Source: a virus
Length of the DNA stretch: 64,000 bases
Strand: one strand, 5' to 3'
Virus record (IMG/VR): IMGVR_UViG_3300047157_000098
Span: 1-64,000 of that record
The notes under the pieces were generated by a model, which was not told the origin of the DNA, made no database searches, and saw only the letters and a program-made list of their open reading frames with translations. Both the position numbers and the translations under genes were made by a program. Each line of letters opens with the position of its first letter. Positions within the stretch are counted from its first letter, which is position 1. Shown one piece after another: positions 5,771-64,000 of this stretch.

Positions 5771-5775
5771 ATATA

Positions 5776-35733: not shown

Positions 35734-35987
35734 TCTACTAATACAACATCTCTTATTGTGATAACGTGATATAACTTATCTTTCCAAGTCATACCGTTTC
35801 CAGCATGAGAATCGTGATGTACTATATCACCGACTTTAACGCCTTCAACTAAATTACCTACACTTATAACTTCAGCCTTTAAATACCTATTGTCAACATC
35901 TAGTTCTTCTGTTAATTCCAAACCACCTATTGTTTTAGGTTCTTCTTTTATTTTTTCTACGATTATATAATAATTAACTGCTTGCAT
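35730..35987 (-). CDS. groES: GroES-like co-chaperonin
   Basis: An 85-residue Cpn10-fold protein. It opens MQAVNYYIIVEKIKEEPKTI. GGLEL at residues 21-25 stands where GroES has its mobile loop GGIVL, and VGNLVEGVKVGDIVHHD matches the Cpn10 pattern VG..KVGD.V. It lies directly upstream of groEL in the same direction, overlapping it by 14 bases, so both are co-translated. The pair should fold phage proteins, perhaps capsid or fibre. The protein is shorter than host GroES (about 95 residues). Confidence 0.8.
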   Translation of the reverse strand: MQAVNYYIIVEKIKEEPKTIGGLELTEELDVDNRYLKAEVISVGNLVEGVKVGDIVHHDSHAGNGMTWKDKLYHVITIRDVVLVE

Positions 35988-37545
35988 TGTCTATTCTTGT
36001 ATTAGAGATTACACAATCCGCAGAAATTATAGTAGAAACAACACTAACTGCGTTCTTCAGTGCTGTTTTAGTTACTAACACTGGGTCTATAACTCCAGCT
36101 TCAATCATGTCAACGTACTTTCCAGTAGTTACATCTATACCAAACCCTTTAGCTGCACCCGTTTTTTGAGTATCTTCAATACCGGCATTATCGAGTATCG
36201 TATTAAAAGGTGCTAATATAGCTTCTAGCAATATTTTTTCGCCAGTATTTACAGCGTCGATGTTTATTGAAGCATCAAATAGAGCAACTCCACCACCGGG
36301 AACAATTCCTTCTTGCAAAGCTGCTTTTGTAGCGTAAATAGCGTCTTCTACTCGGTCTTTTTTCTCTTTTAACTCAACTTTCGAGTCAGCACCGACCTTT
36401 ATAACACCAACAGATCCAGACAACATGGTCAACCTGTCCTTAAGTTTGCCTTTAATATAGTCGTTTTTCTCTTTTTTTATCTTTTTTCTGATATCCTTGA
36501 TTCTTTCAGTTAATTCATCACCAATTACACCAGTTGTTAGGACTGTAGTTCTGTTATCTGTTACAGATTTCACCACTTCACCCAAACAATCTGGCTGGAT
36601 TAGATCTAAATCGTCTCCAAGCTCTTCATTTATGACTGTAGCACCTGTTAGTATTGCTAAATCTTCCATAGTATCACCCTTTGTAGGTCCGAAACCAGGT
36701 GGATCTATGATGTTAACCTTAATATTACCCTTAATTTTGTTCATTAAGAGCGCTGATTTTACTTGTTGGTCAACATTTGCGACAATTAGCAGTGATCTCT
36801 TGTTTTTTATAACATATTCTAGTATGCTCTGTATTCTCCTAATGTTAGGAATTTCAGAAGCTACTTGTAATACTACTGGGTTTTCTAATACTGCTGTTTG
36901 TCTTTCTTTATCTGTCACCCAGTGTGGTGAGGTTAAGTGGCTTTTTAGCTGAACACCGTCAACTATTTCAACAAATGTGTCATTTGTGTCACTTTCCTCC
37001 ATTAATACCGTACCGTCCTTACCTACTTTTTCGTATGCTTCTGCGATAATCGCTCCAAGTTCTGCATCATTGTTGCAACTAATGGTTGATACGTTTTTGA
37101 GCTGAGATCCTGATACTGGCGTGGCGTGTTCAGAAAGGTATTTGTTAACCTTCTCAAGACCGGTGGAAATACCGTTCTTAATATCTCTTGTAGATATGTG
37201 TACTTCATTGTTATATACTGTTTGTAAAAGTGATTGAGCAAGAACGATAGCTGTAGTAGTACCGTCACCTGCTTCTCTCACTGTATTTTTCGATGCCTCT
37301 TTAATAAGGGTAGCACCTATGTTTTCAACCGGATCGTATAAGACTACAGAATCTGCGACTGTTACACCATCTTTTGTGATTACCGGTTTACCTGTTGCGT
37401 CTTCGTATATTACACACTTTCCAGACGCTCCTAATGTTGATTTAACAGCAGAGGCCAGTTTATTGACCCCTGTTGTTATTTTCTCTTTTGCCTCGTCGCC
37501 AAAGTTTAAGTCCTTGACAATCTGGCTTGGTAGATTGTATTCCAT
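35974..37545 (-). CDS. groEL: GroEL-type chaperonin
   Basis: A 523-residue Cpn60. The ATP-binding GDGTTTA signature sits at residues 93-99, KDGVTVA at 58-64, and the GIVPGGGVAL signature near residue 400. It lacks the usual C-terminal GGM tail. Chaperonins are rare in phages and usually linked to morphogenesis of large virions. The co-chaperonin gene follows it. The leader is A/T-only with repeated TTAGATT units. The apical domain sequence seems divergent from host GroEL, so substrate preference may differ. Confidence 0.9.
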   Translation of the reverse strand: MEYNLPSQIVKDLNFGDEAKEKITTGVNKLASAVKSTLGASGKCVIYEDATGKPVITKDGVTVADSVVLYDPVENIGATLIKEASKNTVREAGDGTTTAIVLAQSLLQTVYNNEVHISTRDIKNGISTGLEKVNKYLSEHATPVSGSQLKNVSTISCNNDAELGAIIAEAYEKVGKDGTVLMEESDTNDTFVEIVDGVQLKSHLTSPHWVTDKERQTAVLENPVVLQVASEIPNIRRIQSILEYVIKNKRSLLIVANVDQQVKSALLMNKIKGNIKVNIIDPPGFGPTKGDTMEDLAILTGATVINEELGDDLDLIQPDCLGEVVKSVTDNRTTVLTTGVIGDELTERIKDIRKKIKKEKNDYIKGKLKDRLTMLSGSVGVIKVGADSKVELKEKKDRVEDAIYATKAALQEGIVPGGGVALFDASINIDAVNTGEKILLEAILAPFNTILDNAGIEDTQKTGAAKGFGIDVTTGKYVDMIEAGVIDPVLVTKTALKNAVSVVSTIISADCVISNTRIDNASS

Positions 37546-38200: not shown

Positions 38201-38242
38201 AGTAGTATTATTACACGCTCTGTTTTAAATTTAATAAAAGTA

Positions 38243-38286
38243 TGACACTTGCCTATTACTAGATACTCTTATATAGGCTAATGTCA
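38243..38286. repeat. Bulged inverted repeat, 13 bp
   Basis: TGACA, then TT, then GCCTAT on the left pair with ATAGGC, AA and TGTCA on the right, with one unpaired base on each side of the stem and a 16-base loop. A run of nine A follows immediately on the plus strand. The position in the divergent control region suits an operator or origin structure; it is not a terminator for either direction, because the T-run would lie upstream of the hairpin on the minus strand. Confidence 0.4.
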
Positions 38287-38415
38287 CATAAAAAAAAAGT
38301 TGTTAGATAATTAGAGGTACTGCATTTCCCCCCTCCCCCACCCGTATTCACTCCGTAGAAAAACGCAATTATTTTAGCCAGCCCCCACTCATCTTTATCA
38401 TTTACATATGACAGT

Positions 38416-38479: not shown

Positions 38480-38501
38480 TTTCACATATTACTTTCACAT
38501 A
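38480..38501 (+). repeat. Two TTTCACATA direct repeats
   Basis: TTTCACATA at 38480-38488 and 38493-38501, again 13 bases apart, the same spacing as the TTGACATG pair. The second copy ends one base into the first copy of the early motif, so a factor bound here would sit against it. Confidence 0.4.
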
Positions 38502-38530
38502 CTAAATACGAGACTAAATGGATAATATAA
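38501..38530 (+). promoter_or_regulatory. Early motif copy 1
   Basis: ACTAAATACGA, seven variable bases (GACTAAA), then TGGATAATATAA. It is the first plus-strand copy beyond the control region. The right half runs into ATGTAA, a start codon followed at once by a stop, about 100 bases before the first early gene. Confidence 0.6.
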
Positions 38531-38548
38531 ATGTAAATAAAATCTATT

Positions 38549-38611
38549 ATGAATAAGATATTGAGAGACAGTGTGGAATGGTTTCTGTGAGTTCGATTCT
38601 CACCTACTCAT
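38549..38611 (+). other. tRNA-like hairpin element 1
   Basis: GTGAG-TTCGATT-CTCAC at 38587-38603 has the form of a tRNA T-arm, followed by CTACTCA and T as in an acceptor 3' strand. The 5' acceptor partner is weak (TGAATAA, 5 of 7 pairs) and I cannot fold a D-arm. AGAGAC-GTTTCT upstream forms a 6-bp stem with an 11-base loop. It may be a degenerate tRNA, or an RNA element that shares only the T-arm. A 13-residue reading frame also lies here (ATG at 38549). Confidence 0.3.
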
Positions 38612-38632
38612 CTAACAATTAAAATAATTAAA

Positions 38633-38767
38633 ATGAAAAGAAAGTTTCAACACTTTGCAATCAATGCGATATTGGTTTCGCTTGCAACACTAGCATTCAC
38701 AGGAATAATAACTATTATGTATCACTTGGCTTTTAATAATCCAACAATAACTTACGGCGGATGGTAG
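38633..38767 (+). CDS. Small membrane peptide (44 aa)
   Basis: Translation gives 44 residues: a basic start (MKRKFQHF), one membrane segment (AILVSLATLAFTGIITIMY), and a short polar tail. It overlaps the next gene by 7 bases. It follows the first motif copy and the tRNA-like element, so it is likely among the first proteins made. Function unknown. Confidence 0.5.
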   Translation: MKRKFQHFAINAILVSLATLAFTGIITIMYHLAFNNPTITYGGW

Positions 38768-38874
38768 AACTACTTGACAAAATAGCACAAGAAACATACG
38801 GTGAATTTGGATTCGCTACATGTACTGACGAGCAACAACTAGAAATAATAAGTAATAATTTAACAACTAAATAA
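38761..38874 (+). CDS. Small acidic peptide (37 aa)
   Basis: Starts at ATG 38761 inside the end of the membrane-peptide gene and reads 37 residues with a polar, acidic character (MVELLDKIAQETYGEFG). The overlap suggests coupled translation. Family unknown. Confidence 0.45.
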   Translation: MVELLDKIAQETYGEFGFATCTDEQQLEIISNNLTTK

Positions 38875-38875
38875 T

Positions 38876-39013
38876 ATGCAGTGGATTTTAACATGCGAAA
38901 ACGGTAAGCAAATAGATATGTCAAGCGATATACTAAAGCAAATGGAAAGAAAAATAACAAGACAAGATGTTCTTGAAAGAATTGAGTTTTATAAATCAAC
39001 TAATAAAAAATAA
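38876..39013 (+). CDS. Small helical protein (45 aa)
   Basis: A 45-residue protein, MQWILTCENGKQIDMSSDIL onward, one base after the stop of the previous gene. A single helix with a basic tail. Family unknown. Confidence 0.5.
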   Translation: MQWILTCENGKQIDMSSDILKQMERKITRQDVLERIEFYKSTNKK

Positions 39014-39017
39014 TAAT

Positions 39018-39179
39018 ATGTATAGAAAATATCAAACTAATCAACAAGCGTGGGATGAAGTGACACGTAACTACAATGAATCACTAAGACGAACAGAAAT
39101 CTGTAAAGAAATGTTTGGTCAAGAAAATCTAAAAGGTTTAACAGATGAGCAAAGAGAATCATTCTGGAAAGCAGTATAA
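39018..39179 (+). CDS. Small hypothetical protein (53 aa)
   Basis: A longer in-frame reading starts at 38967, but ATG 39018 follows an AATAATATG-type leader right after the previous stop, and gives MYRKYQTNQQAWDEVTRNYN. It is the more likely start. The protein is helical and charged, ending WKAV. Family unknown. Confidence 0.55.
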   Translation: MYRKYQTNQQAWDEVTRNYNESLRRTEICKEMFGQENLKGLTDEQRESFWKAV

Positions 39180-39184
39180 TACAA

Positions 39185-39217
39185 TCTAAATACGAACTGA
39201 GTTGGATAATAATATAA
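39185..39217 (+). promoter_or_regulatory. Early motif copy 2
   Basis: TCTAAATACGA, seven variable bases (ACTGAGT), then TGGATAATAATATAA (one extra AAT unit). It is followed two bases later by the ATG of the next gene. Confidence 0.6.
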
Positions 39218-39219
39218 AT

Positions 39220-39414
39220 ATGAATATGAAAACATTTAAACAAGTAAACAAAACTACCATCAGAGTAAAAGATGGCGACAACTACTCAACCTATAAAGGC
39301 TATGATATTGGCTCTTTACCTCCAACATTTGGCTTCTGGTTTAATCCAGAAACAGAGAAAGAAGGTATTGGTGAATGGTTTAACTACAAAGGTTTAACTT
39401 ATATACAAAAATAA
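39220..39414 (+). CDS. Small hypothetical protein (64 aa)
   Basis: The ATG at 39220 (MNMKTFKQVNKTTIRVKDGD) lies two bases after motif copy 2; an upstream in-frame TTG at 39202 is part of the motif itself, so I prefer the ATG. A beta-strand-rich domain with YKGYDIGSLPP. Function unknown. Confidence 0.6.
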   Translation: MNMKTFKQVNKTTIRVKDGDNYSTYKGYDIGSLPPTFGFWFNPETEKEGIGEWFNYKGLTYIQK

Positions 39415-39421
39415 TAATAAT

Positions 39422-39670
39422 ATGACTAAAAGAAAATACTTTGACGATTTAACTCTCGAGGAGATGTTTAAATCACATGACTGGACTTATATGTACGCTG
39501 ATGACAATAGATATTACACATCAGGTAGAAGACAGAAAGAATTGATAGATAATAAAATAGAACAATCAGGTGGATGGTCACAAGATATTCTTAAACTACA
39601 CAACGCTCATTGCCCAAAACCAATGCAGATCAGTGAAGAATGGCTAGAAAATCATTTACTAAAACAATAA
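39422..39670 (+). CDS. Small hypothetical protein (82 aa)
   Basis: 82 residues, MTKRKYFDDLTLEEMFKSHD onward, mixed helix with a His and Cys near the end (NAHCPKPMQISEEWLEN). Leader ATAATAATATG. Family unknown. It sits in the tightly packed cluster behind motif copy 2. Confidence 0.55.
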   Translation: MTKRKYFDDLTLEEMFKSHDWTYMYADDNRYYTSGRRQKELIDNKIEQSGGWSQDILKLHNAHCPKPMQISEEWLENHLLKQ

Positions 39671-39674
39671 ATAT

Positions 39675-40205
39675 ATGAAGACTATATATAAAGGTGATGC
39701 TCGTTATGAAAAAATAAAAGAGCAGATGGATTTACTAAATATAACTGATGTAAGTACTGAAAAACAAATTAAAAACGGTACAATAATCTGGAGATTACCA
39801 TACAAACTAAGAGGTAATTACGTAGAATATGGTGCTTTCTCTACAGGTTATGTAAGAAATCAAGGTAATCAGTGTCATTCTAACTGGCAATGTAACAAAA
39901 GAGTCAAAAGTGAACCTCAATATTATCCTGACTATAAATGGTGCGATAAAACAAATCAAAGCATAGCGACAGGTAAATTTAATAGATACTACAGTAGAAT
40001 ATGTGTTTTAATACCTACAGAAATAGATAGATTAGAGTATATGATGAAATATATAGTTAAAAATGAGTTTGTCAAGCGTGCTAAAACTTTAGAAAGAGAT
40101 TACATACCAAGATGGAAGTATGATTACTTAAAAAAAGAAAAAGTACAAGAAACTATCAACGAAGTAACATTAACAGTAAACGGACAAAGATATAATATAA
40201 TATAA
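39675..40205 (+). CDS. Conserved early hypothetical protein
   Basis: A 176-residue basic protein beginning MKTIYKGDARYEKIKEQMDL. HSNWQCNKRVKSEPQYYPDY and KWCDKTNQS give a Cys/His-rich centre, which could bind metal. The C-terminal part is beta-rich (ETINEVTLTVNGQRYNI). It follows its neighbour by 4 bases and leads directly into the next gene. Family unknown. Confidence 0.5.
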   Translation: MKTIYKGDARYEKIKEQMDLLNITDVSTEKQIKNGTIIWRLPYKLRGNYVEYGAFSTGYVRNQGNQCHSNWQCNKRVKSEPQYYPDYKWCDKTNQSIATGKFNRYYSRICVLIPTEIDRLEYMMKYIVKNEFVKRAKTLERDYIPRWKYDYLKKEKVQETINEVTLTVNGQRYNII

Positions 40206-40206
40206 T

Positions 40207-40560
40207 ATGGAAAAAAGTAAATTAAAAGAACTATACTTAGAACACCACGGTTCTACACTAGATACAGTAGATTTTAAAGGTGGTTATGATTTTATAATGA
40301 ATCAAGAATACACTGCAGATGGCTATGACTTATTTTTATGTCATGACGGTAAATCTGCTGTTTGTTTAAGTGAAGATGTATATTACTACTCTCATGATTT
40401 AACAGATGTACTCAAAAATGCTATACACGGCGCCCAGTCTATATACTGTGGTGAAGAGATATATGATGAGTGTTATATTAATGATGAGTGGGAAGAATGG
40501 TGTCTTGAAGACGGATTAGTAGAGTATAATGACGAAGACGAACTAGTTATTACAGACTAA
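40207..40560 (+). CDS. Acidic early hypothetical protein
   Basis: A 117-residue, strongly acidic protein (CGEEIYDECYINDEWEEWCL, ending EDELVITD) with MEKSKLKELYLEHHGSTLDT at the start. Acidic early phage proteins often mimic DNA to inhibit host factors, but I have no direct support for that. Its stop codon lies inside motif copy 3. Confidence 0.5.
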   Translation: MEKSKLKELYLEHHGSTLDTVDFKGGYDFIMNQEYTADGYDLFLCHDGKSAVCLSEDVYYYSHDLTDVLKNAIHGAQSIYCGEEIYDECYINDEWEEWCLEDGLVEYNDEDELVITD

Positions 40561-40585
40561 ATACGATTACCATTGGATAATATAA
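40556..40585 (+). promoter_or_regulatory. Early motif copy 3
   Basis: ACTAAATACGA, seven variable bases (TTACCAT), then TGGATAATATAA. The stop codon of the upstream gene (TAA, 40558-40560) lies inside the left half, and the next gene ATG lies 11 bases after the right half. Confidence 0.6.
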
Positions 40586-40596
40586 TAAACGAATAT

Positions 40597-40809
40597 ATGA
40601 ATTGTAAAAAATGTAACAATACAATACCTCAACAGCGGCTAGCATTTGGTTATACTTCCTGCGTTAAATGTAGCACTACAGAAGCTTATGGTTGTGTTAA
40701 TATCACTTACCACAAAACTGGCAACACTATCCAAATTATGCCAAAAACCCAAGCAGCTAGAATACGTAAGCTATCCGCTCGTAGAGGTTACGGAACATGT
40801 TTAAGATAA
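40597..40809 (+). CDS. Small zinc-ribbon protein
   Basis: An ATG at 40597 (MNCKKCNNTIPQQRLAFGYT) follows the motif. The protein has two Cys pairs: CKKC and CVKC separated by about 22 residues. This is a typical zinc ribbon, with a basic tail (ARIRKLSARRGYGTCLR). It could bind nucleic acid. The in-frame TTG at 40573 is inside the motif and is less likely as a start. Confidence 0.6.
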   Translation: MNCKKCNNTIPQQRLAFGYTSCVKCSTTEAYGCVNITYHKTGNTIQIMPKTQAARIRKLSARRGYGTCLR

Positions 40810-40813
40810 TAAT

Positions 40814-40897
40814 ATGAAAGAATACTACGAATTTAATAATGAACAAGAGTACGAAGAGTACGCCCAGTTAATGTGGTTAATAAATAATAACAAATGA
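40814..40897 (+). CDS. Very small acidic peptide (27 aa)
   Basis: A 27-residue reading, MKEYYEFNNEQEYEEYAQLM onward, after an AATAATATG leader and overlapping the next start by 4 bases (ATGA junction). Coupled translation suggests it is real. Function unknown. Confidence 0.4.
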   Translation: MKEYYEFNNEQEYEEYAQLMWLINNNK

Positions 40898-41022
40898 AAG
40901 AATATACAGTAACATATCTACCTCATATGAGAGAAGACAAAGAGTGGATCAATGTAAACGCTAAGTCTGAAGAAGATTTAGTACTTAATTTTAAAGCAGG
41001 AGTAATATTAAATATAGAGTAA
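40894..41022 (+). CDS. Small hypothetical protein (42 aa)
   Basis: A 42-residue reading that overlaps the previous stop by an ATGA junction, MKEYTVTYLPHMREDKEWIN onward, ending GVILNIE. Beta-strand-like. Family unknown. Confidence 0.45.
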   Translation: MKEYTVTYLPHMREDKEWINVNAKSEEDLVLNFKAGVILNIE

Positions 41023-41023
41023 A

Positions 41024-41269
41024 ATGAAAGAAAATGTAAGAGTAAATGGATGGGACTTTGAATATGTAAGTCAAGATGATGGCAATGACCAGTTCTATCA
41101 GTGTAGAGGTGAGGTAATGTATGATGACGAGCATGACCAAATACCTGAACCAGCGTTGTGGGATGCAGCGTTGAAGTTAGAAAAAGAATTAACTGAAGAA
41201 GGTTATAGATGTGATGCAAATCACAGTGAAAAAGGATGGGTTGAAGTATCAATATTTGGCAAGATATGA
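41024..41269 (+). CDS. Small acidic hypothetical protein (81 aa)
   Basis: 81 residues, MKENVRVNGWDFEYVSQDDG onward. Two possible short strands and a helix (DAALKLEKELTEEGYRCDAN). Its stop shares bases with the next ATG. Family unknown. Confidence 0.5.
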   Translation: MKENVRVNGWDFEYVSQDDGNDQFYQCRGEVMYDDEHDQIPEPALWDAALKLEKELTEEGYRCDANHSEKGWVEVSIFGKI

Positions 41270-41466
41270 GTAAGTTAGACGAAATAATAGACAAAGAGTT
41301 AAAGATATTTGATAGATCAATAGTGGCTACACCAAGTGATAGAGAAAAATTAGATGCCTTCGCGGCGGCTAATCATGGAGTTAATGATTTTTTATTAACG
41401 CAGATGGCTGTACAGTTGGGTTACGTAACAGCTTTAAAATTTATAAAAGAAGAAGTAAACATATGA
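41266..41466 (+). CDS. Small helical protein (66 aa)
   Basis: 66 residues, MSKLDEIIDKELKIFDRSIV onward, mostly helical. ATGA overlaps on both sides (4 bases each) show it belongs to a coupled run. Family unknown. Confidence 0.5.
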   Translation: MSKLDEIIDKELKIFDRSIVATPSDREKLDAFAAANHGVNDFLLTQMAVQLGYVTALKFIKEEVNI

Positions 41467-41666
41467 GTGATTCAGTAAAGAAATACTACGAAATGGTAGA
41501 AGACGGGGAAATAAAAGTAAACCCTGATAAAGTAAATCCTAGGTTAAGGTGTGAACAAAAAATACTAGACATAGGTCATGCTTTAAAAGAGTACGAAGGT
41601 AACGTCATAGATAAATGGCAGGTTATCAACAAGATAGAAGAAATAATGTCAAGGCTAGACGAGTAG
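41463..41666 (+). CDS. Small hypothetical protein (67 aa)
   Basis: 67 residues, MSDSVKKYYEMVEDGEIKVN onward, with HALKEYEGNVIDKWQVINKI at the end. The gene is followed by 184 bases without a gene, containing the second tRNA-like element. Family unknown. Confidence 0.5.
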   Translation: MSDSVKKYYEMVEDGEIKVNPDKVNPRLRCEQKILDIGHALKEYEGNVIDKWQVINKIEEIMSRLDE

Positions 41667-41748
41667 CTTAATTAGATGAGTTTGAAGTTGATCATGAAAA
41701 ATAGGTTATATGATGGATTCTCATACATAAGTGAATAGCTAGCAAAGG

Positions 41749-41848
41749 AAACTAGGTCAGGCAAAACATTGTACAAGTAAACGTTTTCACGAGCTTGTAG
41801 TGTAGATGGGCTACCGACGGGTATGAGGTTCGAATCCTCACTAGTTAC
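41749..41848 (+). other. tRNA-like hairpin element 2
   Basis: TGAGG-TTCGAAT-CCTCA at 41824-41840 is a perfect tRNA T-arm, followed by CTAGTTA and C. An AAACTAG at 41749-41755 pairs with CTAGTTA in six of seven positions but lies 100 bases upstream, too far for a plain tRNA. The interior has a TACAAG/CTTGTA stem and a GTAGT/GCTAC stem. I cannot fold a cloverleaf. It ends 2 bases before motif copy 4. The remaining bases of 41667-41850 show no gene. Confidence 0.3.
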
Positions 41849-41850
41849 AA

Positions 41851-41880
41851 ACTAAATACGAATACAGTTGGATAATATAA
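41851..41880 (+). promoter_or_regulatory. Early motif copy 4
   Basis: ACTAAATACGA, seven variable bases (ATACAGT), then TGGATAATATAA. The next gene ATG lies 13 bases after the right half; between them only A and T occur. It is directly behind the second tRNA-like element. Confidence 0.6.
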
Positions 41881-41893
41881 TTAAATAATAAAT

Positions 41894-42130
41894 ATGATAA
41901 AAATTAAAACCGTCTACGACAAGTTATTGCCCGACGTTAAAACAGAATTGCAGTCAAGTGCTAGAAAGTATAATTCTGCTAAAAGGTTAAAGTATACACT
42001 AATGTCTAAAACTATGTGGCATGAACTTACAATAGATGAGATGAGAGATCTTATGACTTATGGTAACTTAACTACTTACAAACTAGATCCATTTAGCTTT
42101 ATGTATGGTGATAATATACTTGTAAAATGA
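41894..42130 (+). CDS. Small hypothetical protein (78 aa)
   Basis: 78 residues, MIKIKTVYDKLLPDVKTELQ onward, helical then short strands. First gene behind motif copy 4. It overlaps the next gene by 4 bases. Family unknown. Confidence 0.55.
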   Translation: MIKIKTVYDKLLPDVKTELQSSARKYNSAKRLKYTLMSKTMWHELTIDEMRDLMTYGNLTTYKLDPFSFMYGDNILVK

Positions 42131-42384
42131 GCAAGTTAAATATACCAAAATGGTTTAAAGGTAGCGTGTATAACGAAGGTGATACCGTTACCAATCCATT
42201 CAGCGGCGAAAGCTATGAACTAACTGGCTTAGAGTTAAGTATTTACGACTTTATAATGGGTTGTCAATACGTATTTGAAGTAGCACCAAAAGCTGCAACG
42301 CCTCAACAAATCAAAGACTTTCATAAAGGTATTGATTGGTTTAGAAAACATAACACTAAAGCTTATATGGTATTATTAGATTAA
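42127..42384 (+). CDS. Small hypothetical protein (85 aa)
   Basis: 85 residues, MSKLNIPKWFKGSVYNEGDT onward, with GDTVTNPFSGESYELTGLEL like a small beta-barrel domain and a helical end (IKDFHKGIDWFRKHNTKAYM). Twelve bases separate it from the tRNA. Family unknown. Confidence 0.5.
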   Translation: MSKLNIPKWFKGSVYNEGDTVTNPFSGESYELTGLELSIYDFIMGCQYVFEVAPKAATPQQIKDFHKGIDWFRKHNTKAYMVLLD

Positions 42385-42396
42385 TGCTATACACAT

Positions 42397-42469
42397 TGCG
42401 CGGTAGAGCAGCTGGTAGCTCGTTGGGTTCATATCCCAAAAGTCGGAGGTTCGAGTCCTCCCTGCGCAC
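42397..42469 (+). tRNA. tRNA-Met(CAT)
   Basis: A full cloverleaf of 73 bases. The acceptor is 7 bp (TGCGCGG with CTGCGCA, one G-T), the D-arm GAGC/GCTC with an 8-base loop, the anticodon stem TTGGG/CCCAA with loop TTCATAT and anticodon CAT, variable loop AAGTC, and T-arm GGAGG/CCTCC with TTCGAGT. The anticodon CAT could also be lysidine-modified Ile, but Met is the default reading. No CCA is encoded. Confidence 0.9.
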
Positions 42470-42483
42470 CTAAATAATAATAT

Positions 42484-42828
42484 ATGAATACAATAGAATT
42501 TAATAAACTAGTACACGAACTAAACGAGTACTCAAACAATGTAATGTCAAAGAAAGGTCCTGAGTATACTCAAGAATCAGCAGACGTTTTAAACAATTTT
42601 AAAGCAACAGCAAAAAGAATAGGTATATCACCGTTAAAAGTATGGTCTATATTCTTTGACAAACAAGTGCAATCAATAATGTCTCATGTCAATAATCCCA
42701 ATCTTGACAAGGCAGAAAGCTTAGAATCTAGGTTCGCAGATGTTATAAACTACTGCAGATTAGGTCACGCTTTATTTACAGAAAGAGAATCGGGAATAAT
42801 TAAAGAAGTATTTAACAATGATAACTAA
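42484..42828 (+). CDS. Helical protein, possible nucleotide-modification-associated (DUF1599-like)
   Basis: 114 residues, MNTIEFNKLVHELNEYSNNV onward, then KKGPEYTQESADVLNNFKAT and ESRFADVINYCRLGHALF. The layout F..KN..Y followed by DxxNYxxL resembles the DUF1599 (Nmad1) family found near phage nucleotide-modification genes. I cannot confirm it. Its stop overlaps the start of the next gene by 11 bases. Confidence 0.4.
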   Translation: MNTIEFNKLVHELNEYSNNVMSKKGPEYTQESADVLNNFKATAKRIGISPLKVWSIFFDKQVQSIMSHVNNPNLDKAESLESRFADVINYCRLGHALFTERESGIIKEVFNNDN

Positions 42829-42997
42829 AAATGAATTTCAATCGTACGTAGACGTACAAATGTCAGGTGTAACTAATATGTTTGATGTAAGAACAGTAGA
42901 GTCTATATCTGGTCTTTCAAAAGCTAAGATTATGGATATAATGAAAAACTATAGTCAATATGACAAAACTTTTAAACTAGAAGAAAATGTCGACTAG
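42818..42997 (+). CDS. Small hypothetical protein (59 aa)
   Basis: Starts at ATG 42818, inside the end of the previous gene, and reads MITKNEFQSYVDVQMSGVTN onward for 59 residues. It is mostly helical and overlaps the next gene by 11 bases. Both overlaps fit coupled translation. Family unknown. Confidence 0.45.
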   Translation: MITKNEFQSYVDVQMSGVTNMFDVRTVESISGLSKAKIMDIMKNYSQYDKTFKLEENVD

Positions 42998-43448
42998 AAA
43001 CCTAACAATGGTAGTGGATAGGAAATATGCAGAGAACCATGAACTTGGTTTTGCTGCTCCTCCCACATTTTTTCATGACAATAGCTATGTAAACATGTAT
43101 TTACATCATGATGGCTATCCTGAATGGCAAGGTGTGCAAATAGCAAATTGGCTTCATGCTAACCCAACTAGTGACGGTAGCCGTTTAGCTGCTAAGTTAG
43201 TTCATGATATGTACTATGACAGTTGCTATTTATATCCTGATCACTCTAATATAGATCATCACTACACTTATATTATATTCTCAGGCAAACAAGACAGATG
43301 GGTTAGTTGTTATGACAATTACTCGAACGAAACTGTATTTGTACTAAAACCAGAGAAGATTATATCTAAATATATGAGAGATATGGAGTACACTGATTTT
43401 TCAAACAATGAAACTAGAAAAAAACAAAGAGAAGTTTATACAAACTAA
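42987..43448 (+). CDS. Conserved early hypothetical protein
   Basis: A 153-residue protein starting MSTRNLTMVVDRKYAENHEL, rich in Tyr, His and Asp (HDNSYVNMYLHHDGYPEW, CYLYPDHSNIDHHYTYIIF). Similar proteins occur in other large phages without known function. Its last codons overlap motif copy 5. Confidence 0.5.
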   Translation: MSTRNLTMVVDRKYAENHELGFAAPPTFFHDNSYVNMYLHHDGYPEWQGVQIANWLHANPTSDGSRLAAKLVHDMYYDSCYLYPDHSNIDHHYTYIIFSGKQDRWVSCYDNYSNETVFVLKPEKIISKYMRDMEYTDFSNNETRKKQREVYTN

Positions 43449-43473
43449 ATACGAACGTAGTTGGATAATATAA
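43444..43473 (+). promoter_or_regulatory. Early motif copy 5
   Basis: ACTAAATACGA, seven variable bases (ACGTAGT), then TGGATAATATAA. The stop codon of the upstream gene (43446-43448) lies in its left half. The next gene ATG is two bases after the right half. Confidence 0.6.
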
Positions 43474-43475
43474 AT

Positions 43476-43763
43476 ATGACAGACGAACAATTAACAAAGT
43501 TAGCAGACTTGATAACAGAAAGGTTAATCAACCATCGTAATGAAAAAGATATAGCTTGGCATGACAAAAGCCCTATAACAATAGAAGATTTGCTTGAAGA
43601 TATGCCTTTAAGTTTCAAAGAAACTCCTGAAGAACATATCATAGGTGAAATTGCACGTCTTACTACTCTTCTAATGATGTATCAAGAACAAGAAGAATAC
43701 AGAAAAATGCAGATAATACAAAATAAAATTAACAGATTACAGAATAAACTAGATAAACTATGA
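43476..43763 (+). CDS. Small helical protein upstream of ligase
   Basis: 95 residues from ATG 43476, MTDEQLTKLADLITERLINH onward, all helical with a coiled-coil end (QEEYRKMQIIQNKINRLQNK). An in-frame TTG at 43461 is inside the motif. It overlaps the ligase gene by 4 bases. Family unknown. Confidence 0.55.
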   Translation: MTDEQLTKLADLITERLINHRNEKDIAWHDKSPITIEDLLEDMPLSFKETPEEHIIGEIARLTTLLMMYQEQEEYRKMQIIQNKINRLQNKLDKL

Positions 43764-45849: not shown

Positions 45850-46485
45850 ATGTCACAAGACAGAAATATAAAGTGGCTAAATAATAGACGCATCGTCTAC
45901 AGGAGAGATCCTACTACCGATGTACCTACTATTGAGACAGAACAATATAAATACTACGCTGATGGTACATACCAATGTTATCACTTGTTTAATAGCAAGG
46001 CTAAGATAACTACGTATAAATCGTTAAAGTGGCATATGCTTGTATTGTATTATCTAAATGAAGATACAACACACGACTCGACTGGAGAAGGAGGTAGTAT
46101 TGAACGAGTGTTTAGATTTATAGCTGATAAAGAAAATGGGTTTGTTACATTTTTTATTAAAAGCAGAATATTAGATGAAATGATAGAAAACGTTATGACA
46201 ATAGGTGGTGAACCACCAGCTAATAAAATGCGTAAAGTAGTATTTAAACCCTACAATGGACTGAGTTTAAGTGAAAAACTTAGCATAGTAGGTAAATTAA
46301 TAGGTAGATCTTCAGAAGTAGATGAAGAAGCAATCTACCAAACAATGTTAGATTTAAATGAGTTTGGAAAAAAGATTACAATAAGTAGGATAGCTGGTTT
46401 GCTCAACTGTTCTACTAGAACAATATATAGAAATATGAGCAATCAACTTAAAAACGAAAAAAAAATATTAAATGAAGAAATATAA
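45850..46485 (+). CDS. HTH regulator upstream of sigma factor
   Basis: 211 residues starting MSQDRNIKWLNNRRIVYRRD. The C-terminal 45 residues have a clear helix-turn-helix (ITISRIAGLLNCSTRTIYRN) followed by a basic helix. The middle is helical. It overlaps the sigma factor by 14 bases, so both are made together. It is probably a phage transcription regulator that works with the sigma factor. DNA target unknown. Confidence 0.6.
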   Translation: MSQDRNIKWLNNRRIVYRRDPTTDVPTIETEQYKYYADGTYQCYHLFNSKAKITTYKSLKWHMLVLYYLNEDTTHDSTGEGGSIERVFRFIADKENGFVTFFIKSRILDEMIENVMTIGGEPPANKMRKVVFKPYNGLSLSEKLSIVGKLIGRSSEVDEEAIYQTMLDLNEFGKKITISRIAGLLNCSTRTIYRNMSNQLKNEKKILNEEI

Positions 46486-47236
46486 TATACCCGGTTATAT
46501 AATCGATAAAGAAGATTTAAAACAATCGTTAGCTAGAATACCTGAACATGGAACAGACTATAATTTATATACTAGAGATCAACTTATAATTAAGTTTTGT
46601 CCATTGGCAGAGAATATAGCTAGAAAATTTTCAACTAGTCAACAAGCCTCTGGTGTTATGAGTATAAGAGATTTAATACAAGAGGGTAGAGCTGGCTTAA
46701 CTAAAGCTGTTGATAGAATTGATTGGGAAAGACTAAATGAATCTGAAGATAAAGAAAAAACAATAAAAAGTTTTTTATCAAAGAGAATACGAGGTGCTAT
46801 CCGTAGATCAATAGATATTAACAGAGGTGACATACGTATACCTGAACATAAATTAAACGAAATACGTAGAAACTTTGGCAAGGATAAAAAAATGGTGTCG
46901 ATGTTTTTTAATAGTATATTTTTAAGCATAGATGATAAACCTAATAATGATGAGAACATGGTATATCAGATACCAGACAAGTCTGAGCCTTATAATATGC
47001 AATTACTTAATATATATTTAACTGGTTTGTTAAAGAAACATTTAGATGATAGAGAGTATAATGTATTGAGACTTAGCTATGGATTAGATTGTGACAAGCA
47101 TTCAGCAAAGCAAATTGCAACTGAATTAAACATCGAAGGATCTAGCTCTTACGTGAGAGTTTCACAGCTAAAAAAGCAAGCGGTAGATAAGTTAATAGAA
47201 AACGTAGACCACTCGCAAGTGCTTGATTACCTATAA
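46472..47236 (+). CDS. Phage-encoded sigma-70-like factor
   Basis: 254 residues. Region 2: SIRDLIQEGRAGLTKAVDRI (about residues 67-86) and SFLSKRIRGAIRRSIDI (about 106-122), the core-binding and -10 recognition part. Region 4: LDDREYNVLRLSYGLD, then HSAKQIATELNIEGSSSYVR as the HTH (about residues 185-225). Region 1.1 and full region 3 are absent, as in compact sigma factors. It should redirect host RNA polymerase to phage promoters. It lies in the middle of the early module, so it could drive middle or late genes, but its recognition motif is not established. Confidence 0.75.
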   Translation: MKKYNIPGYIIDKEDLKQSLARIPEHGTDYNLYTRDQLIIKFCPLAENIARKFSTSQQASGVMSIRDLIQEGRAGLTKAVDRIDWERLNESEDKEKTIKSFLSKRIRGAIRRSIDINRGDIRIPEHKLNEIRRNFGKDKKMVSMFFNSIFLSIDDKPNNDENMVYQIPDKSEPYNMQLLNIYLTGLLKKHLDDREYNVLRLSYGLDCDKHSAKQIATELNIEGSSSYVRVSQLKKQAVDKLIENVDHSQVLDYL

Positions 47237-58093: not shown

Positions 58094-61000
58094 TTACTTG
58101 ATTATTTTCTTTTTTATTGTTTTCTTCTTTAAAGTTTTCTTTCTAATTACACCATCAGCTTTATCTTTAGCTTTTTCCACATCGTAATTCTCTATACCAA
58201 CATCCCAAGTTGTCCAGCCTAATAACGTTGCTATTCTTTGCCAAGAAGAGTTTCTTTCATCTAAAGATGCTCTCACATTTCTAACCTTCTTTATAGCTCT
58301 ATCTAAGGGTAGGTTTGTAACAGCAGATACTATGTTTCCAAAAGCATCATAAGTTGGATTATCAATATCAAATCCCATACCTTTAGGCCCAAACATTATT
58401 TTTTTATTAAACTTATATGTTTGTATTGCTGAGTATAGTTTTCTTAGTTTGGAGCCGATTGGTGGAGACAGGTTCACTGCTTCTATTACAGTATAAGTAT
58501 GGTCTGCATTCCAACCTTTTTTCTCTTGCTCTATAAACTTCATTATCACATTTTTAATAGTAGAAACCGCAGCGCCGTATAAACCAGAACCTCTTAATAT
58601 AGTGTCAGACATGCTATTAACTATTCTACTTTTCTTCTTGTCTAGCTTCAAATCCTCCTCTTCTTCTTCATCAGCAAACATCATGCCGAACAATGCGTTT
58701 TGTAAAGCAGCAAACACAAAGTTTTGTACAGCTCCATAGTATATAATTTTAGAAACGTTTGTTTTAAAATCACCCCTACCATTAACTAAGTCTCTCATAG
58801 CTTTTTTGGTTAACCTCATGTACTGCATTGGTGTGTTTTGGAAAGCTAATATAACTCTACCAAGTGGTCCAGCTTGTTGTTGTGATATTAAATCTGGTCT
58901 ACTAGACTGCTGAGATTCTTCCGACACTTGAGCAAAGTCTTCAAAAGCTTTAGCCTCAGCTTCTTTCTTGCTTAAACCATTTTTTAAGTATGTGTTAACT
59001 CTATTCCTATACATAGATGCTCCACCAATAGCTATAGCAAAACTATCCGCTATTTGAGTAGGTGTAAAACCAAGTTTTAGTATATAAGCTAATACAGCAC
59101 TTGCTTTGTTTTTAGCTCCCGAAGCAGCGTTAGCTATTTCTGCTTCATTAACATCTGTTTGTAAACCACTACGTCTTTGTTTTAACATGTCTGAATTAAA
59201 TATCATAGCGAAGTCAGACCAAAACTGTTTTTGATTAGCAAAGGCTATAGCAGCTTTGATAGGGTTATTGTCTGACCAGTTAACAAAGTTTACAGCTGAT
59301 AGTGTTTGTAATATAGCTGATCTCATATTCAAGAACATAATAGCTCCAACAGAGTTGTTTACCCAATTCATCCAACGGTTAACAATTCTATTTTTACCAA
59401 ACGATCTATTAGTACCGTTTTTCATACGGTATATCATATCCTCTAAGGCTTCTCTAAAGTTACTACCATATATAGCCTCTATTTTATTTAAATTCTTTTT
59501 AGAAAATACAACATCTACATTTTCTGAAAACTCTTTTAGAAACTTTTTTCTACCTATTTTTTCAGAAATATCGTTTAAATCGGAAGCTATAGTTCCAGCT
59601 AACCAACTATCTGAGGGTGATATATAACCATCTTCTAGTTTAGTTATTCTACTTAAAGTATCTGCAAAAGCAACCATTTCTTTATTGCTGGAGACTATTT
59701 TAACTAACTCAACTTGGTCTTGTTTTGATAAACCAGGTATTGGCATACCAAATTTACTCCACAAATAAACTCTTATAGCTTGCCCGTAAGTAAAATCCTT
59801 GTACTCTGTTTTCTTTCCAAGTAATTTTCTAACTTGTGGAAACGCTTTTCTCAAACCTAACCAGTCATTTGATATGCTTTGTTTAGCTACGTTTAAAGCA
59901 GCCATACCTCTAGCAAAAGGCTTTATTAAGTGCTTTTGGAAAAACTCCATTTGAGCTTCTCCTTTCTTACCTTTTGATAAAAAGTCGTACAATAAACCTA
60001 TAAAATCCTCAGCTGACGGTGGTAAAAAATACTTCCATTTCGATCTTTTGCTTTGTCCTATTCTTTGTGCCGCTGCCTGAGAATACTCTTTAAAAGCCTC
60101 AACACCTTCAGATTCTTCTATTATATTGTTAAACTCAGAATCTAGATCTTCTATAGAGAATTTAGCTTGCTGAACATCAGACTTAACATCAACAGTATCT
60201 AACACCTCTTGAACAGCTTTAACATTCTTATAAGCGTCGTCAGCAAAGTAAAAGTTATTATAACCCTCTGCTGCTTTGTTTAAAATCCAATCAGCTTTAG
60301 CTTTAGCCGTACCATCCGCTAAACCAGTTATATTGTTAAGAGGAATATTTAAACCTATACCTTTTAAAAACTTATGTATAGCATTTGCAGCCTCTGCTGG
60401 TCTAGCTGTTAAAACAAATATGTTTTTGTTACCGAACTTACCTTGTCTTTTAGTGGCTAGATCAAACAGTGGACCTTTTCTACCATCTATAACCTTATTA
60501 AACTCACTAAAGTCATAAGAAGCTCCTTTCTCTGTTAATTCAGCATCTCTTTTAGCAAACTCTGTAGCGTTTATCTTCATGACCTTACCGTTAGGCATGG
60601 TGACTATTATCTGGCTGTTAGTAACAGCTAGTGTGTCGTCAAAATCAAAAACACTTATACCTTTGTCAGGTTGGTTCATAGACCTTGCGTTGTCCATAGC
60701 TTTATCAGCTATACTAAGTTTTGTTACTTCTAGTGTTTTTTCTGCTACCTTGTCTCTAAATTCATTTGTTTTTTGAGATTCATTAGAGTATGCGTCAATA
60801 TTGGTTCCACCAACAACATATATATCAGTTTTCTTGTTTTTAGGTAAAGCTTTTAGTCTACCTTTTTTAGACTGGTTTGTTTTACCTGCTAAATCTACTA
60901 TATCCAAGTTATAATTTATGTCTAACCACTGTATGTGTTCAGCTAAGATGTCAGATACTTGGTTTATAGTTTCTGCTTTAGTTAGATTTTTAACATCCAC

Positions 61001-64000
61001 CGAGGCAAGCTTTAACATTGTGTTTGAATTAGGAGATAAGTGTTCTCCTTTTTCCGATAACTTCTTTATAGCAGCATCTTCTATTTGTTGTAACGTAGCG
61101 TCTGGATTGCTATTTTTTGTTATTTTAAAAACTAAACTCCAACCAGGAGTTTGTTTCCAAGAATTAACATAAGCATCTCTAGCTTCTTTTTCGGTTTTAT
61201 ACTTACCATTTTTAGTAACGTTGGGTTTACTGTCCATACCAAACTGAACTCCATCTTCAAACCTAATCAAATCAAGTCTTGTTAAAGCTCTAAGTCCATT
61301 AACAGCATTAGTTTGAAGCTGAAAGAAATGAAGCATAGATGATTCAGATATTTTACCAGAACTGTACATATCTAAAACAGTACTTACAATGTGCTCAGCT
61401 AAAAGTAGGTTAGCTATGTTTGCTTTTTCTAACCTAGGTAGTATTGTCTCTTCAAAAAGTTTTATTTTCTCGTCTCTTTTGATATCCATTTTTTGAATAT
61501 CTTTTATTTCTTGCATTATACCAGAGCCTGAATTCATAGGGGCAACATCTTCCATTACCAAAGCCTCTGGCAAAGTTGATTCTGTTTTAATACTTGTAGC
61601 TTTTAAAAAATCTTTATAAAAAGCACCCTCACTTCCATCATTCTTTTTCTTTGCTGGATCTAAAACTCTATTTATATAACCCAAACCTTCAATGAATCTA
61701 GGAATATTAATAACAGCAGCACCTAGTACAGAAGCTAGTTTAAGCATGTCTTTTGAAAAAGCTTTTAAATCTTTTATAGAGCTAGTTTTTGCTTTTAAAG
61801 CGGACGTGTATTCAAACCTGCCTTGCTTTTTTATACCAGCTACAAAACCGTGGGCTTTAGCGTCGTTTATTAAACCAATGTCATATAGATATCTAACTAC
61901 TTTAGGAACTTTAACTCCGTACTTAGAGATATCTTGCATGTTACCATCTTCGTCTATTAAACTATCAAGATCCTTTTTTTGCACTTCTCTAACAAGCTTT
62001 GAGACCTCACTCATCTCTTGTTTAGTCAGGTCGAAGTCAACGTCATTCTCACTTAAAGCAAACTTAGTGTTGGGGTCTCTGTTTATTTGTTTAGCTGTTT
62101 CCTCTACGTAATTATCAGCTTGCTCTCTTTCTAGTATCTCGTCAATAGCCTTTCTTCTTTCTTGAACATCTGGGTCTTTAACTACATCCATAGTAGCATC
62201 AAAAGCTAATTCTTCAGCTAAAGCCTCTGCTAAAGCATCTTTTCTAGTACCTTTAGTTGACGCTCCAACTTTGCTACCTATAAAATAAGATAACCACTCT
62301 GCTTTTGCTATCTTTCTTTTAGCAAAAATAGCGTTACCTTGTGGAGTTTTTTCTCTTAGCTGTTTACCATCTTTATCAAGCACTGGCTCTGCAAACTGTC
62401 TAAATCTTTTGTTTATAATCTCTTGTGATAATTTAGCGTATATAGCTTCAAAATTATCTCTTAAAAACTGTTCTTTAATAGCTCTAGTACCTATAAGGTT
62501 TGCCATAGCTGTTTTCAACTCTACTCTAAAAGCTTTTTGCAGAGCTTTTTTAAACTCTTTGCTAGTTACAGCAGGTAGTCTAGTTCCAAACGTTTTTACA
62601 ACAGCTCTTTTTATCTTGTTATAAAGATCGCTACCTTCTTCTATGTTTAGCTGTTTTCGTAATGATGGTTGTTCTACAGTCTCTTCAACAACCGTCTCCT
62701 CAGCCACAACACCTTTTGCTTCAGACACATCAGACGTAAACTCTTTTTCGAACATGCTATCAGCTATCTCTATAGCTCTAGATGCTAGGTATTTATTTAT
62801 GTAAGCAGCTAACGGCACGCCACTATCAGGATTGTACTTCATAACAAGGCCGTAAACACCTCTATTATCTATAAGCAACTGCTCTATAAAATCGTCTTTA
62901 TAAGTTGTATAACCAGGCACGTCTCTATATTTACCAGCTATTTTGTTGACCATACCTCTATATGCTTCTGTTATCTCAAAAGCCGCGTCTTTACCGCTCT
63001 TATTATATAGGTCTTGAACTTCGTTACTTTTTTCAAAAGCTCTAGATTCTTTTTTAACAGTTTCACTAACCTCTGTTTTAGCTTTTATAAGCTTGCCTTT
63101 AACTTTACCAGCAGCTACAGTGCTTATTCCTTTTCCAAGTTTACCTTTGGCTATACCAGTATTGTAGTCTTTTATAAAATTATAAACATCTCTACCATTG
63201 TTGAACTTAACAGCCACGCCTGTTGACTGCAATATTTTTCTTATTACATCACCAATCTTTGTGAATATATTTTCATTAAACTTTATATCTCCAGTTGCTA
63301 AAGCATCAGAAAACAAAGTAAGGATCTCTTCTGCAGCATCTCCTTCTTTGTACTTACCCTCTTTATATAGTTTTTGATACTGCTCAATTCTTTTCTTGAA
63401 TCTACTATTTTGAATTTGCTTAGCGTCTATATTGTTTAAGTAACCCATTAGTGACTTACCTAAAGCTTTTTGTGTGTCAGGGCTAAATTTAACAGCTTCA
63501 AATAAAACAGCATGAAGAAACTCATGTGCAGCTATATTTACGTTGCCTTGTTTAGCAGCGACATCTTTGTTTATAAATATTATTTGTTTACCAGTGGCTG
63601 GGTCTTGAATAGCAAAACCTTGTTGCTTAGCTTCAGTTCTTAATTCTTTTAAGCTTTTTTTATTAGGATTATCATCATCAAGCTTATCATTCATCTCCTT
63701 GAGTCTCTTTAATATTGACTCAGTGTCGTTCTCAACTTGAAAACTAACATCATCTCCAAACATGTTTGTTGCTTCTTTAGCCAGCATTTCCATTTGCTCG
63801 TCAATCTTTTCAGCATTTTCTTTTTCAATGTAAGGATTTACAATTTCGTTTTTCTTTGATAAAGAGTCTTGGTACTTAGCTTTTAATTTATCTAATTCAA
63901 CTTTCTTTTCTTCTTTCGATAATGAATCATCGTTTTTAATATCTTCAGCTTGGTTGACTAAGTTGTGTCTTACTCTAGCTTCTTCTACAAGAGCTTCTTT
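58094..64000 (-). CDS. Giant multi-domain virion protein, N-terminus beyond window
   Basis: The minus frame stays open to the right edge, so the N-terminus is missing; 1899 residues follow the first visible Met, with at least 69 residues before it. From that Met: HEFLH at residues 90-94 is a zincin motif. Residues about 262-350 resemble a sigma region-2 layout (YNPDSGVPLAAYINKYLASR). VFDFDDTL near residue 1045 is a HAD-phosphatase motif I, with VLTARP and YFADDAYKN as later motifs. The last 600 residues are helical with short hydrophobic parts, as in ejected proteins. This matches phage polyvalent proteins. The mix suggests a protein injected with DNA. Domain calls other than HExxH and HAD are tentative. 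Confidence 0.6.
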   Translation of the reverse strand, partial: KEALVEEARVRHNLVNQAEDIKNDDSLSKEEKKVELDKLKAKYQDSLSKKNEIVNPYIEKENAEKIDEQMEMLAKEATNMFGDDVSFQVENDTESILKRLKEMNDKLDDDNPNKKSLKELRTEAKQQGFAIQDPATGKQIIFINKDVAAKQGNVNIAAHEFLHAVLFEAVKFSPDTQKALGKSLMGYLNNIDAKQIQNSRFKKRIEQYQKLYKEGKYKEGDAAEEILTLFSDALATGDIKFNENIFTKIGDVIRKILQSTGVAVKFNNGRDVYNFIKDYNTGIAKGKLGKGISTVAAGKVKGKLIKAKTEVSETVKKESRAFEKSNEVQDLYNKSGKDAAFEITEAYRGMVNKIAGKYRDVPGYTTYKDDFIEQLLIDNRGVYGLVMKYNPDSGVPLAAYINKYLASRAIEIADSMFEKEFTSDVSEAKGVVAEETVVEETVEQPSLRKQLNIEEGSDLYNKIKRAVVKTFGTRLPAVTSKEFKKALQKAFRVELKTAMANLIGTRAIKEQFLRDNFEAIYAKLSQEIINKRFRQFAEPVLDKDGKQLREKTPQGNAIFAKRKIAKAEWLSYFIGSKVGASTKGTRKDALAEALAEELAFDATMDVVKDPDVQERRKAIDEILEREQADNYVEETAKQINRDPNTKFALSENDVDFDLTKQEMSEVSKLVREVQKKDLDSLIDEDGNMQDISKYGVKVPKVVRYLYDIGLINDAKAHGFVAGIKKQGRFEYTSALKAKTSSIKDLKAFSKDMLKLASVLGAAVINIPRFIEGLGYINRVLDPAKKKNDGSEGAFYKDFLKATSIKTESTLPEALVMEDVAPMNSGSGIMQEIKDIQKMDIKRDEKIKLFEETILPRLEKANIANLLLAEHIVSTVLDMYSSGKISESSMLHFFQLQTNAVNGLRALTRLDLIRFEDGVQFGMDSKPNVTKNGKYKTEKEARDAYVNSWKQTPGWSLVFKITKNSNPDATLQQIEDAAIKKLSEKGEHLSPNSNTMLKLASVDVKNLTKAETINQVSDILAEHIQWLDINYNLDIVDLAGKTNQSKKGRLKALPKNKKTDIYVVGGTNIDAYSNESQKTNEFRDKVAEKTLEVTKLSIADKAMDNARSMNQPDKGISVFDFDDTLAVTNSQIIVTMPNGKVMKINATEFAKRDAELTEKGASYDFSEFNKVIDGRKGPLFDLATKRQGKFGNKNIFVLTARPAEAANAIHKFLKGIGLNIPLNNITGLADGTAKAKADWILNKAAEGYNNFYFADDAYKNVKAVQEVLDTVDVKSDVQQAKFSIEDLDSEFNNIIEESEGVEAFKEYSQAAAQRIGQSKRSKWKYFLPPSAEDFIGLLYDFLSKGKKGEAQMEFFQKHLIKPFARGMAALNVAKQSISNDWLGLRKAFPQVRKLLGKKTEYKDFTYGQAIRVYLWSKFGMPIPGLSKQDQVELVKIVSSNKEMVAFADTLSRITKLEDGYISPSDSWLAGTIASDLNDISEKIGRKKFLKEFSENVDVVFSKKNLNKIEAIYGSNFREALEDMIYRMKNGTNRSFGKNRIVNRWMNWVNNSVGAIMFLNMRSAILQTLSAVNFVNWSDNNPIKAAIAFANQKQFWSDFAMIFNSDMLKQRRSGLQTDVNEAEIANAASGAKNKASAVLAYILKLGFTPTQIADSFAIAIGGASMYRNRVNTYLKNGLSKKEAEAKAFEDFAQVSEESQQSSRPDLISQQQAGPLGRVILAFQNTPMQYMRLTKKAMRDLVNGRGDFKTNVSKIIYYGAVQNFVFAALQNALFGMMFADEEEEEDLKLDKKKSRIVNSMSDTILRGSGLYGAAVSTIKNVIMKFIEQEKKGWNADHTYTVIEAVNLSPPIGSKLRKLYSAIQTYKFNKKIMFGPKGMGFDIDNPTYDAFGNIVSAVTNLPLDRAIKKVRNVRASLDERNSSWQRIATLLGWTTWDVGIENYDVEKAKDKADGVIRKKTLKKKTIKKKIIK

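Follow-up and report, generated by a model that had tools for sequence, protein, structure and literature searches.

Phage-encoded sigma factors, such as gp28 and gp33/34 of SPO1 and gp55 of T4, which acts at late promoters, steer the host core polymerase to phage-specific promoters of the −10/−35 type. The middle promoters of T4, which involve MotA/AsiA, have an enlarged upstream box instead of a −35 element, combined with a sigma-70-like −10 element. In Flavobacteria, the sigma-A promoter consists of the boxes TTTG and TAnnTTTG, and 5.5% of the mRNAs of F. psychrophilum are leaderless (PMC9723704, ISME Commun 2021).

The repeated motif described here resembles each of these systems in part. 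As with the SPO1 and T4 sigma promoters, a phage sigma factor would direct the host core enzyme, but the sequence is different, a 16-nt upstream block keeps a rigid distance of 7 nt, the host is probably of Bacteroidota type and the promoters are clustered upstream of the sigma gene. The enlarged upstream box and the sigma-70-like −10 element recall T4 middle promoters, but the motif-bearing phage has its own sigma. A TAATACGA-like octamer and its spacing to a G are shared with T7 class III promoters, whereas no T7-like polymerase accompanies the motif and a conserved GATAATA is followed by a pyrimidine/purine start signature 12 nt further on. Like flavobacterial sigma-A promoters, the motif has an A/T-rich −10 region and short or absent leaders; unlike them, it has no TTTG in the −7 box, and the host boxes occur at chance level in phages that carry the motif and are enriched in relatives that lack the sigma.

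The motif is almost certainly the promoter class that a widespread marine phage clade infecting Flavobacteria-type bacteria uses for its first gene block. From sequence comparison, we consider it probable (about 0.7) that this sigma-70-like architecture is read by host core RNA polymerase carrying a phage sigma factor, possibly aided by a neighbouring helix-turn-helix (HTH) protein. We found no earlier description of the motif in the open-access literature. For this clade of abundant marine phages, it supplies a sequence-based rule by which promoters, start sites and leaderless genes can be predicted.

Five copies at the opening of the rightward gene block

The 69.6-kb virus contig IMGVR_UViG_3300047157_000098, whose first 64,000 nucleotides were analysed and are hereafter called the window, encodes a TerL nearest to that of the uncultured phage ctfjg026 (63%) and also close to those of phages of Flavobacterium, Cellulophaga, Tenacibaculum and Maribacter, so a Bacteroidota-type host is likely. 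A leftward late block holds TerL, portal and other structural genes. The rightward block contains small genes, tRNA-Met, DNA ligase, an HTH protein, a sigma factor, ERF, a primase-helicase, ThyA and ribonucleotide reductase, and a second leftward block lies beyond it. The motif copies stand at the opening of the rightward block, whose designation as early genes in a preliminary description is plausible from position.

A search for ACTAAATACGA-N7-TGGATAATATAA with up to 3 mismatches returns exactly five matches in the window, all on the plus strand, starting at 38501, 39185 (3 mismatches), 40556, 41851 and 43444. These are the copies first described, with the same 7-base spacers (GACTAAA, ACTGAGT, TTACCAT, ATACAGT and ACGTAGT). 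No other copy occurs anywhere in the complete 69,639-base record; the backwards control returns 0 matches, as do 100 dinucleotide shuffles of the window at up to 3 mismatches. The five copies are far beyond chance. The left half runs about 5 bases further 5′ (TACAA) than originally given, and the predicted features are as follows.

38496..38533, plus strand: promoter copy 1; upstream block 38496-38511, TGGATAATA 38519-38527, predicted +1 G 38533
39180..39217, plus strand: promoter copy 2; upstream block 39180-39195, TGGATAATA 39203-39211, predicted +1 39217, ATG 39220
40551..40588, plus strand: promoter copy 3, overlapping the stop of 40207-40560; TGGATAATA 40574-40582, predicted +1 40588, ATG 40597
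41846..41883, plus strand: promoter copy 4; TGGATAATA 41869-41877, predicted +1 41883, ATG 41894
43439..43476, plus strand: promoter copy 5, overlapping the stop of 42987-43448; TGGATAATA 43462-43470, predicted +1 43476, the A of the ATG (leaderless)
43476..43763, plus strand: predicted leaderless gene, 95 aa, served by copy 5

Gaps of 5, 11, 13 and 2 bases separate copies 2–5 from the next ATG, within the 2–13 bases reported for four copies, and the two overlaps with an upstream stop codon that had been described are those of copies 3 and 5. Copy 1 precedes a start–stop, ATGTAA, with the first open reading frame (ORF) about 100 nt further on; its transcript would open with a tRNA-like stretch, followed by small ORFs. 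Sequences resembling tRNA T-arms lie at 38560-38612, right after copy 1, and at 41655-41850, right before copy 4, and are uncalled by ARAGORN and Rfam.

Anatomy of the motif and predicted start site

We aligned 682 distinct copies, many of which are kin by descent and hence statistically non-independent. Selection relied only on the columns up to the end of GATAATA, leaving the −1 and +1 columns unused. The consensus is TACAAACTAAATACGA-N7-(TG)GATAATA-N4-Y-R; column by column, the copies read T-A-C-A-A-A-C-T-A-A-A-T-A-C-G-A, then 7 variable positions, a weak TG, a near-invariant GATAATA, four W-rich positions, a pyrimidine, a purine and an A-rich stretch. The TG of TGGATAATA is kept in only 67–69% of copies, columns 18 and 22 (the A at −11 and the T at −7 of GATAAT) are conserved in approximately 100%, and the predicted +1 and −1 are a purine in 98% and a pyrimidine in 83%, respectively. 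Sigma-70-type promoters have these same traits: a −10-like hexamer in which A occupies −11 and T occupies −7, and a purine start about 7 nt on with a pyrimidine before it. The start site is accordingly placed, as a prediction, at the purine after GATAAT, at canonical sigma-70 spacing.

The placement of the copies is promoter-like. They lie outside same-strand ORFs of at least 60 aa in 97.5% of cases (49% for random positions), an ORF starts 0–40 nt past the predicted +1 in 75% (control, 19%), and an ORF has its ATG exactly at +1 in 17% (control, 0.6%). ORF start codons are near zero in columns 15–28 and then peak at 117 at +1; a further 57 ATGs at column 14 are in frame with column 29, and most of these can be read as upstream extensions of the column-29 frames. 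Because the start-codon peak falls at +1, about 17% of copies would yield leaderless mRNAs, including that of the window gene 43476-43763. We rejected translation from the ATG at column 27, since only 12 of 198 such ATGs open a frame of at least 30 aa and 143 are ATG-TAA. The start–stop ATGTAA, in columns 27–32, is read in 142 of the 682 copies, and transcripts of the TGTAA class, window copy 1 among them, would begin with GUAA.

The right half had been described as a short conserved leader, with +1 at the G of TGGATAATA. The Y/R step, the onset of ORF starts and the leaderless peak instead all fall 12 nt past the conserved G, at sigma-70 spacing, so that the supposed leader reads as a −10 element with its discriminator and is probably not transcribed. 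A start at the G of TG is also hard to square with three motif-bearing genomes (G004, G005 and G038) in which TG is often replaced by other bases. A role at the RNA level or in structure (for instance in enhancing translation, in processing or in termination) might be suggested by copies that just precede start codons, but has a next to negligible probability: the 17% of ORFs that start at +1 begin inside the extended motif, other distances range from 0 to more than 100 nt, and there are also copies that stand before tRNA-like stretches or in divergent pairs.

The preliminary description also pointed to AATACGA in the left half as the core of T7-type promoters. This sequence, which occupies roughly −28 to −22, does match the T7 layout, as does the 9-nt gap between it and the conserved G, and relatives too encode giant virion proteins, so the reader could in principle be a phage RNA polymerase, either T7-like and single-subunit or of an unrecognised virion type such as the 2628-aa protein at 58094-65980. 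We regard this as highly improbable. PF00940 is found in 0 of 51 motif-bearing records, with the T7 positive control detected; the C-terminal 1577 aa of gp66, the crAss-like virion polymerase of phi14:2, match 0 of 11 genomes, with phi14:2 itself positive; and the start-site signature lies at sigma spacing. The 2628-aa protein was rejected as a polymerase, having no support from RNA polymerase families or PDB structures, no catalytic DFDGD and no [TD]xxGR. This protein, at 58094-64000 in the window and extending to 65980 of the record, has no family match but contains HEFLH zinc-peptidase-like and FDFDDT HAD-like motifs, and resembles a large polyvalent ejected virion protein.

Conservation across a marine phage clade

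An exact 17-base core of the motif occurs in at least 119 stretches in IMG/VR. Relatives were also sought independently of the motif, by way of the sigma protein. This gave 57 loci, and each of the 31 that include 8 kb or more of upstream sequence has 2–13 motif copies (at least 5 in 29 of them); the reversed-sequence control on the sigma loci gives 0 matches. Nearly all copies (215 of 227) are on the strand of the sigma gene, mostly 1–9 kb upstream of it, and the 12 on the opposite strand are mostly one divergent copy adjoining the first. Conversely, the sigma is encoded in 45 of the 51 large motif-bearing records, and the other 6 stop short of its expected place. Both motif and sigma are missing from the relatives phi38:1, phi14:2 (a more distant, crAss-like phage), ctfjg026 and elemoF. 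No cultured member of the clade was found in the phage collection searched. A search of relatives and a test for enrichment before genes had been proposed as checks, and these 31 loci, together with the 75% of copies followed by an ORF start, bear on both. The proposal of a phage-specific promoter is strongly supported.

A phage sigma factor as candidate reader

Two adjacent genes in the rightward block are candidates for recognition of the motif.

45850..46485, plus strand: HTH protein, 211 aa, overlapping the sigma gene; candidate co-activator
46472..47236, plus strand: phage sigma-70-family factor, 254 aa, with regions 2, 3.0 and 4; proposed motif recogniser

The product of 46472-47236 is a bona fide sigma-70 relative: it matches Pfam Sigma70_r2/r4, phrog_351 and, by profile, SigA (E 7e-9), and every top Foldseek match is a sigma-70. 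In sigma-70 genetics, Gln and Thr of region 2.4 read position −12 in SigA. The SigA sequence IRQAITR aligns to I[RK]GxIRR of the phage proteins, so these −12-reading positions are altered: Gln is replaced by Gly and Thr by Arg, both invariant, with the Arg at the place of Thr440. The motif has a near-invariant G at −12, which the altered region 2.4 may contact.

In the proposed mechanism, host core RNA polymerase carrying the phage sigma would recognise GATAATA as a −10 element (G −12, A −11, T −7), with an optional TG just before it, and TACAAACTAAATACGA (−37 to −22) as an enlarged −35-type block, invariably 7 nt away, and would begin transcription at the purine 7 nt past the last T of GATAAT. 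The promoters would drive the rightward small genes, tRNA and ligase, running into the sigma/replication module, so the sigma would boost its own expression; in two loci a motif copy lies 29 bp before the sigma gene, which fits such self-amplification. The HTH partner may assist the sigma. An activator may be required at the long block from −37 to −22, with the HTH protein as the obvious candidate, and conservation from −29 to −22, unusual for sigma-70 promoters, suggests a second DNA-binding protein.

Promoter-like placement, architecture, the +1 signature, conservation, co-occurrence with the sigma, no T7-type polymerase and no excess of host boxes all lend sequence-level support to this mechanism, in which we infer both the identity of the reader and the timing. 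Co-occurrence fails to single out the sigma, because its gene is part of a module of about ten genes, every one of them clade-specific, that co-occurs with the motif as well. Nor was any host-type promoter found that could produce the first sigma. We also leave co-divergence out of the evidence, because a partial Mantel association between motif and sigma divergence, suggestive at 22 loci, vanished at 44.

A MotA-like arrangement, in which a phage activator such as the HTH protein binds TACAAACTAAATACGA and recruits polymerase with the host sigma, the phage sigma being used elsewhere, is rather unlikely. The long rigid upstream block does resemble an activator site, the HTH gene adjoins the sigma gene and equals it in conservation (it lies directly upstream in nearly all relatives examined), and some factor must act before the sigma exists, given that the motifs precede its gene. 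Yet the −10 element is GATAATA, as opposed to the TAnnTTTG read by flavobacterial sigma-A (PMC9723704), and the HTH protein has no match among solved structures. Nor are host boxes enriched in motif phages: TAnnTTTG shows no excess in 11 of them (21 observed versus 19 expected), whereas phi38:1, phi14:2, ctfjg026 and elemoF have 7, 8, 10 and 15 where 1.7, 3.1, 1.2 and 2.1 are expected. A reading of the motif itself as a Bacteroidota sigma-A promoter was rejected, as the consensus has no TAnnTTTG −7 box and the boxes are not enriched. The candidate sigma seems to have replaced host-type promoters.

Copies in bacterial chromosomes

When 257 Gb of bacterial and archaeal genome sequence was searched for exact matches, 52 stretches were returned. 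Scored against the full profile, most of these are chance matches, and the high scores belong to phage contigs and to a group of marine flavobacterial chromosomes. Copies with 0–1 mismatch are found in G070 (two copies), G071, G072 and G076, and copies with two mismatches in G073–G075. They precede TerB-domain genes (G072, G073 and G074, two of which are closely related), a CAP gene (G075), a gene for a small exported protein (G070 and G071) and a truncated ORF (G076). Among 397 Flavobacteriaceae genomes, only seven have any match, compared with one in the reversed control.

Single perfect or near-perfect copies before genes in a few chromosomes are what might be expected if the phage had borrowed the promoter of a host alternative sigma factor. 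This origin is very unlikely, as such genomes have only 1–2 copies, singletons with no intermediate or weaker ones nearby, about 390 other Flavobacteriaceae genomes have essentially none, and the F. psychrophilum sigma motifs of PMC9723704 are unlike the motif. Integrated phage of this clade was rejected as their source, since no window ORF matches those regions. The copies bear on whether hosts exploit a phage sigma: a host gene (TerB-domain, small exported or CAP-domain) set behind a phage promoter could act as a tripwire, with the phage sigma triggering a host response, a possibility that we consider speculative and quite unlikely. At the chromosomal loci L369, L378, L368, L367, L370, L372, L371 and L374, single copies stand before genes, and some chromosomal copies adjoin a tRNA gene with variable genes downstream.

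Other features of the window and its relatives

A repeated promoter common to many late genes was looked for and not found. A phage-encoded GroEL at 35974-37545 of the window shares about 40% identity with the GroEL proteins of phages and bacteria. The 70.7-kb record G005 (L302–L305) has an early region with a motif cluster at both ends (808-6522 and 64572-70420), similar but not identical, which may reflect terminal redundancy, a duplication or an assembly that merged two strains. Between the divergent blocks, at 38207-38289, lies the dyad TGTGACAnTAGCC...GGCTAnTGTCACACT, conserved in 27 distinct stretches from relatives and a candidate late promoter/operator or origin; after it, TGTAATAATA or TGTGATTAT precedes the first leftward gene.
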